From NCBI GenBank assembly GCA_017525915.1, contig JAFXSC010000010.1, positions 61,673-125,672 of the forward strand: a DNA stretch of 64,000 nt. The letters are read 5' to 3'. The notes beneath the pieces were generated by a model. It had not been told where the DNA came from. It saw nothing but the letters and a program-made list of their open reading frames with translations, and did no database searches. This document shows positions 31,651 to 61,682 of this stretch, piece by piece; position 1 is the first letter of the stretch, and each line of letters starts with the position of its first letter. Both the position numbers and the translations under genes were made by a program. Source of the DNA: Ruminococcus sp. (GTDB lineage: Bacteria; Bacillota; Clostridia; Oscillospirales; Ruminococcaceae).

Positions 31651-33303
31651 GTGATAAACGGTTCTATGCTCAGAGACGGTATTATTTCCGCCGCTGTCAC
31701 AATCAATAACAGAAAGCGCGAGGTTGACGAGCTGAACGTATACCCTGTACCGGACGGCGATACAGGTACGAATATGTCTATGACCATCGGCAATTCTATC
31801 GCCGAGCTGAAAAGACTTCCTGACACATCTTCTGTCTCTGAGGTCTCCGCGAAGGCTGCATCCGCCTTCCTCAGAGGTGCAAGAGGCAATTAGGGCGTTA
31901 TACTCTCCCTCATATTCAGAGGCATCTCAAAGGGACTGAAGGACTGCACCGAGGCTTCTCCCGAAAACTTCGCCGAGGCGCTTTCGCTCGGAGTTGACGC
32001 CGCTTACAAGGCAGTAATGAAGCCTGTCGAGGGTACGATACTCACTGTTATAAAGGCTGCTGCCGCAAAGGCAAAGGAGATATCCGCCGAGACCAGCGAC
32101 GATGTCGTGTTCTGGGAGGAGGTCTGCAATGAGTCTGAGAATGTTCTCGCACAGACCACTGAAATGCTTCCGCAGCTCAAAAAGGCAGGCGTTGTTGACG
32201 CCGGCGGCAAGGGACTTGCCATCATCTTCCGCGCAATGCTCGATGTATTCAGGGGCGGCGCTGTTGCAGAACCGGAAAATCCTCAGGTGCAGGATACCTC
32301 TCTCGAATCCTTCCGCAATGCCGTAAGCGAATACGACGACGAGATAAACTATACATACTGCACTGAATTCATGGTCGAGAAGAAGGAGAAGTGTCCCGAT
32401 GTATTCATGCTCAGGGCATTCCTTGAGACTATCGGCGACTGCGTTGTTGTTGTAGATGACGAGCAGATAATAAAGGTACACGTTCATACCGACGATCCCG
32501 GAAAGGCTATCCAGAAGGCACTTGAATTCGGCCACTTCATAAACGATCCGCGTCCGAAGATCGAGAATATGCGTATCCAGCACGAAAACAAGATCAAGGA
32601 GGCAAAGGCTGCCGAGGAGGGCTATTCACCTGCTGCTCCCGAGAAGGAATTCGGCTTCGTTGCCGTTGCAGCCGGTCACGGTCTTGAAGCAATGTTCACC
32701 GACCTCGGAGTTGATGTCGTTGTCAAGGGCGGTCAGACCATGAATCCTTCCACGGATGATATCCTCCGAGCGATACTCAGAACGCCTGCAAGCACGGTAT
32801 TCGTTCTCCCGAACAACAAGAACATCATCATGGCTGCCGAGCAGGCTGTCAAGCTCACCGACCGCAAGGTCTGCGTTCTCCAGACAAGAACGATACCGCA
32901 GGGCATAGCCGCAATGCTTGCCTTTGACGAATCGCTCAGCCTCTCCGACAACCGCCTGAATATGACAAAGGCTCTCGAAAAGGTATCGACCGGACTTGTA
33001 ACTTTTGCCGCCCGCGATTCCGAATTCGAGGGACACCAGATAAAGGAAGGCGAGATACTCGCTCTCGATAACGGCAAGCTCTCATTTACCGAGCGCGATA
33101 TCAACAAGGCTGCATATAAGCTCACGAAGAAGCTCGCAAAGGGCGAGGCAAGCTACGTTACGCTGATACACGGCGCGGACGTGACCTCCGAAAACGCCGA
33201 GGAGCTCCAGAAGTTCATGCAGTCAAAGTTCGGCGACAGACTTGAAGTAATGCTCGTGAACGGCGGTCAGCCAGTTTACTATTACATAATATCAGTTGAA
33301 TAA
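31651..33303 (+). pseudogene. fakA: FakA/YloV-like fatty-acid kinase gene interrupted by one in-frame TAG
   Basis: One continuous frame of 551 codons is broken only by TAG at 31891-31893. Before it come 80 residues with the DhaL signature (INNRKREVDELNVYPVPDGDTGTNM); after it the frame resumes with GVILSLIFRGISKG and runs through the DegV-like C-terminal half to VYYYIISVE. In homologues the motif reads RGARGNSGVILSQIFRG, so the TAG sits on the conserved Ser, one C-to-A change from TCG. FakA phosphorylates fatty acids held by FakB. No other damage is visible. The options are a recent nonsense mutation, a sequence error, or suppression; a restart at 32017 would lose the nucleotide site. Confidence 0.85.
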
Positions 33304-33307
33304 GATA

Positions 33308-33338
33308 AAAAGGAACGGCTAATGCCGTTCCTTTTTTT
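33308..33338 (+). terminator. Terminator after the fakA-like gene
   Basis: AAAGGAACGGC / GCCGTTCCTTT with a TAAT loop, extended by A and T runs, directly after the stop codon. Confidence 0.9.
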
Positions 33339-33361
33339 GCAGCAGTTCTACGGAGCGTGGA

Positions 33362-33390
33362 TTGACGCGGGAATACACATCGGTTATAAT
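33362..33390 (+). promoter_or_regulatory. Sigma-A promoter of the XRE/desulfoferrodoxin-like gene
   Basis: TTGACG (33362-33367), 17-nt spacer, TATAAT (33385-33390), 18 nt before the chosen start; it rules out the longer upstream frame. Confidence 0.85.
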
Positions 33391-33408
33391 AGGTTCAGAG
33401 GTGATAAT

Positions 33409-34002
33409 ATGGATCAGGTAAGAACAGGCGGACTTATAAGGCGGTTCCGGACGGAAATGGGCCTCACGCAGAAGGAGCTTGCGGAACGTATAAATGTCAG
33501 CGGCAAGGCTGTGTCGAAGTGGGAGACCGGCAGCGGATGTCCTGATATATCGCTGCTCTCAGCACTGGCAGAGGTGTTCGGTACGGATATAAATGTCCTG
33601 CTTACGGGCGAGATAAGCAGGAACGAAAGCGAGGTGGGAAATATGAAAAAAATGAAGTTCTATGTATGCAGAAAGTGCGGCAACATCATCACGGCATCGT
33701 CCGATGCGGCAGTGACCTGCTGCGGAAACAGGCTCAGTGCGCTTGAACCGGTAAAGGCAGAGGAGAGCGAGCAGCTTAAAGTTGAGGATATCGGCGGAGA
33801 GATGTTTGTGTCTTCCGACCACTGCATGACGAAGGAGCATTATATCTCGTTTGTGGCATATCAGAGCGACAGCTGTTTTATGATGTACAGGCAGTATCCG
33901 GAATGGAACGTACAGTTCACGATGCCGCTTTTCCGCACAGGCAGGCTTGTCTGGTACTGTACGGAGTGCGGCCTGAGGTATCAGGAACTCCGCCGGAAGT
34001 AA
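33409..34002 (+). CDS. XRE-family regulator fused to a desulfoferrodoxin-like metal module
   Basis: 197 residues. An HTH_3 domain (~5-62, LTQKELAERINVSGKAVSKWETG) is followed by FYVCRKCGNIITAS and VTCCGNRLSAL, matching the CxxCGN...CCG rubredoxin-like iron site of desulforedoxin. A segment SSDHCMTKEHYISFVAYQ resembles the superoxide reductase HxMTKEHYI motif, and the end carries another CTECG pair. The protein may be a transcriptional regulator that senses metal or redox state through this centre. The start is fixed by AGAGG and the promoter 18 nt upstream. This domain pairing occurs in some Clostridia; targets are unknown. Confidence 0.75.
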   Translation: MDQVRTGGLIRRFRTEMGLTQKELAERINVSGKAVSKWETGSGCPDISLLSALAEVFGTDINVLLTGEISRNESEVGNMKKMKFYVCRKCGNIITASSDAAVTCCGNRLSALEPVKAEESEQLKVEDIGGEMFVSSDHCMTKEHYISFVAYQSDSCFMMYRQYPEWNVQFTMPLFRTGRLVWYCTECGLRYQELRRK

Positions 34003-34043: not shown

Positions 34044-34072
34044 TTGACAAATCCGTTTCCGTGTGATATAAT
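34044..34072 (+). promoter_or_regulatory. Consensus sigma-A promoter of the T-box/acyl-CoA synthetase gene
   Basis: TTGACA (34044-34049), 17-nt spacer, TATAAT (34067-34072), TGA extension: a perfect strong promoter, as expected for a gene controlled by premature termination. Confidence 0.92.
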
Positions 34073-34078
34073 CCAAAC

Positions 34079-34348
34079 ATAAGCTATGAGGAAGACAAGC
34101 AGAGTGTTGCCTATGACTTCAGAGAGCCGGCGGTCGGTGTGAGCCGGTGTTATGCAGTGCGATGTATCCCTTCTGAGCCGGAGTGCTGAAAGTTCCAGTA
34201 AGCGTTCCCGTGATTCTGCGTTAATGAATAGGGCTTGATGGAGCCTGAAGCGGTGTACGCAATAGCGGCACAATTTGAGTGGTACCGCGGGTATTGGTTT
34301 ATAATGCTCGTCTCAAAGTTTTTCTTTGAGGCGAGCTTTTTATTTTTT
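34079..34348 (+). promoter_or_regulatory. T-box riboswitch leader
   Basis: The ~270-nt leader has all landmarks of a T-box: the AGACAAGCAG segment (34093-34102), CAGAGAGC (34120-34127), the apical GGTCGGTGTGA loop, the T-box sequence TGAGTGGTACCGCGG (34276-34290) that pairs with the tRNA acceptor end, and a terminator (GCTCGTCTCAAAG / CTTTGAGGCGAGC, 34306-34336, then T-rich). Uncharged tRNA binding would favour the antiterminator and turn on the downstream gene. The specifier is not certain: by distance to the GAGC motif it is ATC (34166-34168, Ile); by the preference for a following purine it would be TGT (34163-34165, Cys). Confidence 0.93.
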
Positions 34349-34365
34349 GAAAAAGGAGAGATATT

Positions 34366-36714
34366 ATGAGCAGCATGACCAGTTCACAGAATGCAGAAGT
34401 CAAGATCAGAGAGGTCGCTGAGCGAATCGTCCGCCTGCGTGAAGACCTCGGCATCCCGGCAGAGGAAATGGCTGCAATTACCGGCTATCCCGTTGAAGAA
34501 TACAGGAAATTCGAGTCCGGCGAACGCGATTTCAGCTTCACTTTCATTTATAAATGTGCAAATACCTTCCACGTTGAGATAACTGACCTCATGGAGGGAA
34601 GCAGTCCGGAGCTCAGCGGATATACCGTAACCAGAAAGGGCGAGGGCGTACCGATCGTCCGCAGAAAGGGCTTCACCTACAACCGCCTTGCCTCCAAGTT
34701 CAAGAACAAGGCTGTTGAGCCGTTCCATGTCGTTATCCCATATTCGGAGGAGGCGCTTTCCGAGCCCCTGCACATGGCAAGCCACGCAGGTCAGGAAATG
34801 GACATCGTCCTCAAAGGCACACTGCGTATGACAGTCGGCTCGCATACCGAGATACTCCACGAGGGCGACTGCATCTACTACGACAGCTCCATGCCCCATG
34901 ACGAGGTCGCTCTCGGCGGCGAGGACTGCGAGATATACGCCTTCGTTATGCCTCCTAAGGGCACTGTCGGTATGTCCGAATACCACGAGCACGTTGCTGA
35001 GCATCATCTTACAAATGTCGACAAGGCAGGTCTGCTTCACCCTGTTGCTGAGAAATTCGTCAAGTGTGAGACCAACGACGAGGGCGTTCTCAGCGGAGTT
35101 CACTTTGAGAATCAGGACAAGTTCAATTTTGCATATGATATCGTTGACGCAATGGCTGAGAAATGTCCCGACAAGACCGCAATGATCTACGTTGACGTCA
35201 ACAAGAACGAGCGCGTGTTCACCTTCAAGGATATCAAAAAGTATTCCTGCCAGACCGCGAACTACTTCAAGTCCCTTGGAATCAAGAAGGGTGACCGCGT
35301 AATGCTCATCCTCAAGCGTCACTACCAGTTCTGGTTCTCGATAATCGCACTTCACCGCATCGGAGCGCTCGTAATCCCTGCATCGAATATGCTCAAGGAG
35401 CACGATCTTGAGTACCGCTTCAATTCTGCCGAGGTATCCGCTATCGTCTGCACTGCTGACGGCGAGGTCGCTGACGAGGTAGACAAGGCTTGCGCTGTTT
35501 CGCCTTCACTCCGCACAAAGGTGCTCGTAAACGGTCAGCGCGAGGGCTGGCACGATTTCAATGAGGAGCTTCCGGCTTACAGCACCCATTTCGAGCGTAC
35601 AGCCGATACTCCCTGCGGTACCGACCCCATGCTCATCTTCTTCAGCTCGGGTACTTCCGGCAACCCCAAGCTCGTCCTCCACAGCTATCAGTACCCTCTC
35701 GGTCACTATGTGACTGCACGTTACTGGCAGAATGCCGACCCGAACGGTCTGCACTTCACTATCTCGGACACCGGCTGGGGCAAGGCTCTCTGGGGCAAAC
35801 TCTACGGCCAGTGGATGTGCGAGGCTGCCGTATTTGTGTATGACTTTGACCGCTTCCACGCAGATGACATCCTCCCGATGTTCAAAAAGTACAACGTAAC
35901 ATCATTCTGCGCTCCTCCGACCATGTACCGTTTCTTCATCAAGGAGGACCTGTCGAAGTACGACCTCTCATCGCTGAAATATGCCTGCATCGCCGGTGAA
36001 GCACTCAATCCGGAAGTCTTCCACCAGTTCTACAAAGCTACCGGCATCAAGCTCATGGAAGGCTTCGGTCAGACCGAGACTACTCTTTCTATCGCAAACG
36101 TTGTGGGCATGGAGCCGAAGCCCGGCAGTATGGGCAAGCCCAATCCGCAGTACGACGTTCAGGTGCTTCTCCCGGACGGCAAGCCTGCCGGTGTCGGTGA
36201 GACAGGCGAGATCTGCATAAAGCTGAAGGACAGCCGCGATGTCGGTTACGGCGTTCCCGGACTTGCTCTCTGCTACTACGGCGACGATGAGAATACCGCC
36301 GAGACATGGCGCGAGGGCTACTACCACACCGGCGATACCGCGTGGGTGGACGAGGACGGCTACTTCTGGTATGTCGGCAGAGTGGACGATGTTATCAAGT
36401 CCTCCGGCTACCGCATCGGACCGTTCGAGATCGAGAGTGTTCTCATGGAACTGCCCTATGTGCTTGAATGTGCAGTAACAGGCGTTCCGGACGAGGTGCG
36501 CGGACAGGTCGTAAAGGCAACTATCGTGCTGACCAAGGGTACGACCGGTTCCGAGGAGCTTGTAAAGGAGATAAAGGAGTACGTCAAGACCCGTACCGCA
36601 CCCTATAAGTATCCCCGTGTCGTCGAGTTCGTGGAGGAACTTCCCAAGACCGTCGGAAGCGGAAAGATCCGCCGCGCAGCTATCCGCGAAATGGACAAGG
36701 CTAAATACCAGTAA
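34366..36714 (+). CDS. HTH-cupin-acyl-CoA synthetase fusion protein under T-box control
   Basis: 782 residues in three parts: an XRE-type helix-turn-helix (~10-65, LREDLGIPAEEMAAITGYPVEEY), a cupin (~105-205, GQEMDIVLKGTLRM, HEGDCIYYDSSMPHDE), and a full adenylate-forming enzyme (~250-780). The enzyme has the P-loop FFSSGTSGNPK (~424-434), EGFGQTETT, YHTGDTAWVDEDGYFWYVGRVDD and the catalytic Lys in VGSGKIRR near 766. It should activate a carboxylic acid to an acyl-CoA through an acyl-AMP. The HTH-cupin half is a typical stand-alone regulator, so enzyme and regulator are one chain. RBS AAAGGAG. The T-box links expression to an amino acid; the substrate (branched-chain, aryl or other acid) is inferred, not shown. 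Confidence 0.85.
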   Translation: MSSMTSSQNAEVKIREVAERIVRLREDLGIPAEEMAAITGYPVEEYRKFESGERDFSFTFIYKCANTFHVEITDLMEGSSPELSGYTVTRKGEGVPIVRRKGFTYNRLASKFKNKAVEPFHVVIPYSEEALSEPLHMASHAGQEMDIVLKGTLRMTVGSHTEILHEGDCIYYDSSMPHDEVALGGEDCEIYAFVMPPKGTVGMSEYHEHVAEHHLTNVDKAGLLHPVAEKFVKCETNDEGVLSGVHFENQDKFNFAYDIVDAMAEKCPDKTAMIYVDVNKNERVFTFKDIKKYSCQTANYFKSLGIKKGDRVMLILKRHYQFWFSIIALHRIGALVIPASNMLKEHDLEYRFNSAEVSAIVCTADGEVADEVDKACAVSPSLRTKVLVNGQREGWHDFNEELPAYSTHFERTADTPCGTDPMLIFFSSGTSGNPKLVLHSYQYPLGHYVTARYWQNADPNGLHFTISDTGWGKALWGKLYGQWMCEAAVFVYDFDRFHADDILPMFKKYNVTSFCAPPTMYRFFIKEDLSKYDLSSLKYACIAGEALNPEVFHQFYKATGIKLMEGFGQTETTLSIANVVGMEPKPGSMGKPNPQYDVQVLLPDGKPAGVGETGEICIKLKDSRDVGYGVPGLALCYYGDDENTAETWREGYYHTGDTAWVDEDGYFWYVGRVDDVIKSSGYRIGPFEIESVLMELPYVLECAVTGVPDEVRGQVVKATIVLTKGTTGSEELVKEIKEYVKTRTAPYKYPRVVEFVEELPKTVGSGKIRRAAIREMDKAKYQ

Positions 36715-36820: not shown

Positions 36821-37435
36821 TTATTCTGATTTGCTTATGACTTTGGACTGCCAGGATTTTCTGCCGCATTCCGGGCATTTCATATAGCGTTTTCTGCCGA
36901 AGTGCATGGCTTTGTTGACGCTGAGATAGGTCGGGATGTACTTATGGCCGCATTTTGCACATTTATAGTAGCCGGCGACCTGTTCTATCCTGAGAGCGAG
37001 AAGCATTGCCGGGACGAACTGGACGAAGCCTGTGCCTATCAGTACAAATCTGAGCCAGTCCGGAATATTGATGTAAACTGCGAGCAGCAGCATTGCCAGA
37101 AGGAAAACAGAGGATATGATGCAGATGAACACCTCTATCTGAAGCAGCCGCTTGTCTGCGAGCTCCTTCTGCCTTGCCATTTCAATTAAATTTTTTTCCG
37201 TTTTCTCGTTGTAGTTCTCCATAGATACTGCCTCCCCGCTTAAAAGATCGTTGACTGTGATTCTGAGAAGTCCGCACAGTTCAAGCATGATCGAAGCATC
37301 GGGCAAGGATTTACCCGTTTCCCATTTTGACACCGCACGGTCTGTTATGCCGAGCTTTTCAGCAAGCTGTAACTGTGTGAGCTTCTGCTCTTTTCTTCTG
37401 GCAGCAATGAATCTGCCGATCTTGATCTGATCCAT
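36821..37435 (-). CDS. XRE-family regulator with membrane anchor and zinc ribbon
   Basis: 204 residues from the ATG at 37435 (RBS AAAGGAGG). HTH_3 domain at ~5-62 (LTQLQLAEKLGITDRAVSKWETGKSLPD), a linker, two hydrophobic segments (~105-127, IEVFICIISSVFLLAMLLLAV; ~133-153), then a zinc ribbon (CAKCGHKYIP ... CPECGRKSW). Such membrane-tethered XRE proteins are common in Clostridia, often in defence or stress contexts. Neither targets nor signal are visible. It converges on the acyl-CoA synthetase gene. Confidence 0.8.
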   Translation of the reverse strand: MDQIKIGRFIAARRKEQKLTQLQLAEKLGITDRAVSKWETGKSLPDASIMLELCGLLRITVNDLLSGEAVSMENYNEKTEKNLIEMARQKELADKRLLQIEVFICIISSVFLLAMLLLAVYINIPDWLRFVLIGTGFVQFVPAMLLALRIEQVAGYYKCAKCGHKYIPTYLSVNKAMHFGRKRYMKCPECGRKSWQSKVISKSE

Positions 37436-37601
37436 GACCTTGCCTCCTTTCGATCTTATTGTAGCATGAAAACTTCCGGAAATCCACGAACCGGCGGTTG
37501 AATGGGGAGGGCTCAACCAGCGGTGGAGTCCGGAAAACGGCGATATTCCGGGATATCGTTTCGGGGGCAGCAGCCGCCTGACGGCGGCCGCTGAGGGAAC
37601 A

Positions 37602-61628: not shown

Positions 61629-61682
61629 TAATTAGGAATTCGGAAATCTGAATTATGGATTAAAAAGAGGTGGCGTGCGGCT

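Follow-up and report, generated by a model that had tools for sequence, protein, structure and literature searches.

Introduction

T-box leaders are known from aminoacyl-tRNA synthetase, biosynthesis and transporter genes, and according to the survey of Wels et al. (2008, PMC2494555) the specifier agreed with what the controlled gene does in every case where its function had been established. On the enzyme side, MacsMa of Methanosarcina acetivorans is described as favouring 2-methylbutyrate as acyl substrate (PMC10455477), and MbcS of Staphylococcus aureus as activating 2-methylbutyrate and isobutyrate (PMC10026030). In the rumen, isovalerate, 2-methylbutyrate and isobutyrate are reported to be carboxylated to leucine, isoleucine and valine (Allison and others, via PMC7356843); according to the same source 2-methylbutyrate is an isoleucine precursor in rumen fermentation, and it is called a probable isoleucine route in a rumen methanogen (PMC2812497). 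PMC7382037, by contrast, concerns catabolism. T-boxes, acyl-coenzyme A (acyl-CoA) synthetases and reductive carboxylation are each already known. Here, we analysed a window of 64,000 nucleotides (nt), meaning the whole stretch at positions 61,673 to 125,672 of the forward strand of contig JAFXSC010000010.1 from Ruminococcus sp., in which a T-box leader precedes a gene fusing a helix-turn-helix (HTH) and a cupin domain to an acyl-CoA synthetase. From sequence evidence, we consider it highly probable that this gene codes for an acyl-CoA synthetase acting on short branched-chain acids, most likely a 2-methylbutyrate-CoA ligase, which is switched by uncharged tRNA-Ile and serves isoleucine synthesis through reductive carboxylation.

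The leader shares Stem I, specifier, T-box motif and terminator with the T-boxes of the survey cited above, and differs from them in that the gene behind it encodes an acyl-CoA synthetase; the main text of PMC2494555 never uses the terms acyl-CoA, CoA ligase, AMP-binding or cupin. The proposed pathway is that of rumen acid carboxylation, the difference being that candidate Oscillospiraceae genes and a tRNA-based control are put forward here. The publications found to contain both T-box and acyl-CoA synthetase use the two terms in unrelated contexts. Finally, neither the union of these elements, nor their occurrence as Ile/Val pairs, nor the rule linking codon and residue described below was found in the searched literature, a weak negative as few subscription papers were covered.

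A T-box leader with an isoleucine specifier

The features of the locus are the following, all on the plus strand.

34044..34049 and 34067..34072, +, sigma-70-type promoter (TTGACA, 17-nt spacer, TATAAT; sequence letters)
34077..34318, +, T-box leader RNA (Rfam RF00230)
34166..34168, +, specifier codon AUC (Ile) (cmscan alignment; same place in relatives)
34276..34290, +, T-box motif TGAGTGGTACCGCGG with UGGU (sequence and Rfam alignment)
34306..34336, +, intrinsic terminator hairpin (stem 34306-34318 / 34324-34336), then a U run (fold z -4.47)
34366..36714, +, fused HTH-cupin-acyl-CoA synthetase of 782 residues, proposed 2-methylbutyryl-CoA synthetase (Pfam; nearest solved structure 3etc)
34432..34590, +, HTH_3, residues 23-75, acidic (Pfam)
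34762..34941, +, Cupin_2, residues 133-192 (Pfam)
35152..36222, +, AMP-binding N-domain, residues 263-619 (Pfam)
35779..35781, +, codon of Gly472, which adjoins Lys473 and lies four residues before Trp476 (alignment)
36427..36651, +, AMP-binding_C, residues 688-762 (Pfam)

The UGGU of a T-box motif pairs with A73 of the tRNA. The window leader spans the full length of the RF00230 model with 110.5 bits (gathering score 93, E 1.5e-23), holds its specifier at the constant site of Stem I and combines the T-box motif with a competing terminator, as expected of this class. The terminator region (89 nt) folds at -29 kcal/mol, 0 of 200 shuffles being equally good, and similar hairpins are seen in the homologous leaders of relatives. 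The promoter, T-box landmarks and terminator listed by the original prediction, which was made from the sequence alone, are thus all present where it had placed them. It had also tentatively read an Ile codon at 34166-34168, leaving the choice to an alignment with the Rfam model; that alignment returns AUC. The genome as a whole contains nine T-box matches at E <= 0.001, four of them above the cut-off, the window leader being among them.

The order T-box, HTH-cupin and synthetase, reported earlier for this one locus, recurs in relatives. The window protein matched 172 of the 197 genomes of the host's family, many of them in the synthetase part only, and the loci from named genome contigs are the best 80 of 593. 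Keeping copies with a gene start and removing exact duplicates gave 115 copies, a sample centred on the window's own protein that includes three Lachnospiraceae loci (L055, L057, L058). A T-box motif lies upstream of 92 of these copies; among the 23 others, four have less than 350 nt of upstream sequence. A T-box followed by the fused gene is the rule in this sample, and such recurrence argues against a chance arrangement.

The specifier was located by cmscan alignment and by its distance from the basal helix, the codon being followed by one base, a pyrimidine-rich stretch of four and NGAGC. Its position is constant across copies and the preceding bases vary, so the neighbouring frames are not conserved. 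GUA, UAU and UGU readings of the specifier loop were accordingly rejected, since AUC holds the helix spacing and the bases 5' of it vary. The 92 T-box copies read AUC (Ile) in 84 cases, GUN (Val) in five and are unreadable in three (L041, L046, L092); the codons of L107, L038 and both L124 copies were read by eye from the letters. Because the column count was taken from ATC-reading rows only, it is this unselected tally that constitutes the specifier evidence. Two leaders deserve separate mention. At L091:5500-6001, an AUC T-box is much like the R. flavefaciens leader though it lies in a mostly T-box-less Ruminococcus clade, which suggests leader exchange, and the leader at L046:3582-4002 is devoid of the specifier side of Stem I, through either an assembly fault or a real deletion.

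The synthetase and its nearest solved relative

All four domains of the 782-residue chain exceed their Pfam cut-offs (HTH_3 28.8 bits for a cut-off of 23, Cupin_2 42.5 bits), in agreement with the HTH, cupin and complete acyl-CoA synthetase announced by the original prediction. Both sequence and fold place 3etc, the structure of MacsMa, nearest among solved structures; in the structure search (VIA-align, Foldseek), the rows cover residues from about 211 onward. The likeness concerns the synthetase part (674.4 bits), with its AMP-binding and C-terminal domains in the same fold, and extends to the pocket. Indeed, K473, W476 and C515 correspond to Lys256, Trp259 and Cys298 of MacsMa as counted in the phmmer alignment, they are invariant across 55 aligned rows, and Gly472, which directly precedes K473, is likewise a Gly in MacsMa. 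The archaeal enzyme differs in matching window residues 206-779 only, hence in having no HTH-cupin part.

Position 472 aligns with the Val after GW in acetyl-CoA synthetase 9g79, presumably the Val310 that lines the acetate pocket, and residue 472 is therefore predicted to lie beside the acyl pocket.

Association of the specifier codon with residue 472

Relatives offer a natural comparison, as tandem copies of the gene in G168, G186, G105, G037 and G154 combine an AUC leader with one that reads GUC or GUA; a sixth Ile/Val pair was found in G336, which belongs to another family, and six further pairs in a later set. In the first alignment (107 rows), position 472 is Ala in 5/5 Val-read copies and Gly in 101/101 other rows, the second copy of L126 (which belongs to the Val clade, has no T-box and carries Ala) being excluded from both sets. 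It is the only listed position at which the Val-read copies are uniform and all others share another residue. The enlarged set gave Gly in 87/87 Ile-read and Ala in 8/8 Val-read copies.

The codon-residue prediction was then recorded before 40 further regions were fetched. These yielded 46 rows (7 Val, 18 Ile and 21 without a readable T-box), from which two Ile rows were dropped as duplicates (L325 = L117, L329 = L113) and in which one leader (L330) was read by eye. Ala was found in 7/7 Val-read and Gly in 16/16 Ile-read copies, bringing the total to 103/103 Ile-read copies with Gly and 15/15 Val-read copies with Ala. Most later Val copies share 66-89% identity with the G105 protein of the main Val clade, so that they are new data, though not wholly independent ones. 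Where no T-box could be read, either residue occurs: 24 Gly, 10 Ala and one Met among the T-box-less rows of the enlarged set, and 8 Gly and 13 Ala among the later rows, which stand outside the test. Val-read copies are scattered over at least four positions of the tree, and G336 carries a Val and an Ile copy that are mutual nearest relatives (Shimodaira-Hasegawa-like approximate likelihood-ratio support of 100); codon and residue have therefore changed together more than once, barring gene conversion in G336.

The window's own genome contains two more such loci. A second fused HTH-cupin-synthetase (L120:5855-8185, G000:C34), with Gly at 472 and no T-box found, groups with Ruminococcus paralogues most of which lack a T-box. 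Besides, L214:3907-6215 (G000:C42) has no T-box and encodes HTH-cupin and synthetase as an unfused pair with Ala at the 472 position; by the codon-residue rule, this synthetase is a candidate isobutyrate enzyme.

Linkage to Vor genes and a proposed reductive carboxylation

Genes for VorB, VorA and VorC, the components of 2-ketoisovalerate:ferredoxin oxidoreductase (VorBAC), adjoin the tandem pair in L123, L124, L125 and, convergently, L216, as well as the single Ile copy in L128, and VorB and VorA reach the end of the stretch in L121 and L122. The same VorBAC layout is seen in G079 (L126), where no T-box motif was found. The VorB of L122 exceeds the cut-off of the NCBIfam model of 3-methyl-2-oxobutanoate dehydrogenase subunit VorB (536.8 vs 399). 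Across the 197 genomes, VorB above cut-off is present in 37 of the 38 genomes with the protein vs 68 of the 159 others (Fisher 5e-11, kinship ignored). Here, a genome counts as having the protein if its match, of >=52% identity, covers both the HTH-cupin and the synthetase part, whether these are fused or encoded by two neighbouring genes; G077, counted among them, is cut by a contig end. G161 is the sole genome with the protein and without VorB above cut-off, and its copy (L127) has no T-box motif. No neighbour family recurs widely around the gene (the commonest is found in nine loci, in a cluster made partly of antisense open reading frames), so the linkage evidence comes from some relatives only.

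Aromatic acids such as phenylacetate and indoleacetate were considered as main substrate and rejected on account of the Ile/Val specifier and the VorB type of the linked oxidoreductase, which reaches only 71.7 for IOR_alpha (cut-off 650.9) and lies above the VorB cut-off.

The window genome, 99.9% complete, encodes VorB, VorA, VorC and a P-loop protein in one row. It also has one aminotransferase of class IV, which we take to be of the branched-chain type, and a T-box with its loop read as CUC upstream of a putative leuA, an assignment that we assume. Searches for ilvC and ilvD, each positive in 14/14 control genomes, gave no match in this genome, so the classical Ile/Val route is broken there. 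More broadly, ilvC is missing in 22/38 genomes with the protein vs 57/159 others (p 0.016, one uncorrected test).

A Leu-read counterpart may exist. In L078:1390-5621, L085 and L087, a T-box with its loop read CUC (Leu) is followed by a LeuA-like gene and a fusion of about 820 residues joining a TIM barrel (AP_endonuc_2) to an AMP-binding ligase; L123 and L126 also have a LeuA-like gene, placed after VorBAC. The CUC T-box with these two genes is a possible isovalerate/leucine arm. Elsewhere in the window's genome, a T-box with its loop read GUA (Val) lies upstream of a 275-residue membrane-like open reading frame without Pfam match (L001:1501-1727, G000:C22). In the window itself, other HTH_3 proteins flank the locus on both sides (33322-34002 and 36821-37516), and a FakA-like gene is found at 32017-33303.

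Weighing the role of the enzyme

The activation of branched acids for amino-acid synthesis, proposed by the original prediction, gains support from the VorBAC linkage in relatives, the missing ilvC and ilvD and the substrate preference of MacsMa. In the most probable scheme, isoleucine shortage would leave tRNA-Ile uncharged and able to pair with AUC and the T-box bulge. Its binding would let the antiterminator form and the gene be transcribed, the terminator forming otherwise. The window enzyme would convert 2-methylbutyrate, ATP and CoA into 2-methylbutyryl-CoA, which VorBAC would carboxylate with CO2 and reduced ferredoxin to 3-methyl-2-oxopentanoate, and an aminotransferase would yield isoleucine. 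Where relatives carry a second, Val-read copy in which Ala replaces the Gly of the predicted pocket, that duplicate may play the same role for isobutyrate and valine.

The same acids could instead be activated chiefly to prime the synthesis of branched fatty acids for the membrane, the T-box acting as a proxy of amino-acid shortage. MbcS, which serves fatty-acid synthesis in S. aureus (PMC10026030), is indeed the nearest curated family (NF047394, 453.8 bits), but this score is far below the family cut-off of 850 and the profile spans window residues 257-781 only. Since Ile/Val codon control, VorBAC linkage in relatives and the lack of ilvC/ilvD in the window's genome favour amino acids, a lipid role appears unlikely. 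Propionate as substrate of the Ile-read enzyme is very unlikely: propionyl-CoA would be carboxylated to 2-oxobutyrate and reach isoleucine via the ilv pathway, whose ilvC and ilvD, both required downstream of 2-oxobutyrate, are the very genes missing from the window's genome. MacsMa forms propionyl-adenylate (PMC10455477) and the retention of ilvC in some of the 38 genomes would suit this route, but the bulkier residue 472 of the Val-read copy fits an Ile acid larger than isobutyrate, and propionate is smaller. As for catabolism of branched amino acids, with the Vor enzyme working oxidatively on branched keto acids and the synthetase recycling the acids, reversibility of that oxidoreductase would allow it; however, a T-box switches genes on under amino-acid scarcity, which is the wrong sense, and AMP-forming synthetases run toward acyl-CoA, making this option extremely improbable. 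Altogether, these three alternatives fit the codons, the Vor linkage and the missing ilv genes less well than isoleucine synthesis from 2-methylbutyrate.

Several points weigh against this preferred scheme. A purine is usual right after a T-box specifier, and the base 3' of the window specifier is C. No tRNA-Ile(GAU) was seen in the own-genome tRNA loci examined (part of 63 matches), although it may sit in an unassembled rRNA operon. The absence of a T-box in relatives was judged by motif pattern within about 520 nt and not by Rfam. The pocket-side location of residue 472 is predicted from its neighbouring residues and from Val310 of acetyl-CoA synthetase, and the codon-residue counts ignore kinship, most Val copies forming one clade. 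In the window genome, the gene stands alone and VorBAC lies on another contig without T-box. Finally, ilvC is kept in 16/38 genomes with the protein, so the carboxylation route often coexists with the ilv pathway and is not a replacement for it.

The HTH-cupin part

The HTH is acidic throughout the 107 aligned rows (mean net charge -4.9, range -10 to -1; -5 in the window), and the stand-alone homologues are acidic too. Its recognition segment, PVEEYRKFESGE, departs from the S-rich segments ending in ER of six distant HTH-cupin homologues, whose charges range from -2 to +7. The locus thus has the HTH_3 and Cupin_2 domains of an XRE/cupin regulator, and neither the usual recognition segment nor a non-acidic HTH. 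The two-gene form, HTH-cupin then synthetase, stands behind one T-box motif in G029, G140, G169, G114, G163 and G129. As such forms exist and the window's genome has an unfused pair, the fusion would postdate an operon.

A working DNA-binding autoregulator inside the enzyme, which would be compatible with the proposed ligase, could account for the two-gene form in relatives, the HTH_3 score above its cut-off and the conservation of the HTH region (mean share of the commonest residue of 66% in the 107 rows). Nevertheless, the charge and the recognition segment speak against it, and the alignment of 14 T-box-less upstream regions shows nothing beyond promoters resembling TTGACA/TATAAT and a ribosome site, no operator-like repeat being noticed by eye. 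This possibility is doubtful; the window HTH is probably not DNA-binding, and a sensor or assembly domain is more likely. Hence, from the original prediction, the Ile specifier and the branched-acid activation for amino acids are supported, and the DNA-binding regulator within the enzyme is not.

Conclusions

Beyond this locus, we lean toward the view that it belongs to a set of tRNA-gated acid-scavenging enzymes in which codon and pocket-side residue change together (AUC/Gly for 2-methylbutyrate, GUN/Ala for isobutyrate), so that the codon would tell the substrate. The switch would have arisen more than once, a Leu-codon T-box with a LeuA-like gene and a second ligase type may represent a third arm, and the HTH-cupin part would descend from a regulator that now serves the enzyme as an internal sensor or assembly domain.

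Cellulose-degrading ruminococci require branched volatile fatty acids, and the searched literature names no gene, nor any control of such genes, that brings these acids into ruminococcal amino acids. The locus offers concrete candidate genes and a mechanism open to in vitro testing. Besides, a rule by which an RNA codon predicts the acid substrate could name the substrates of AMP-binding enzymes that rumen and gut genomes otherwise list only in generic terms.
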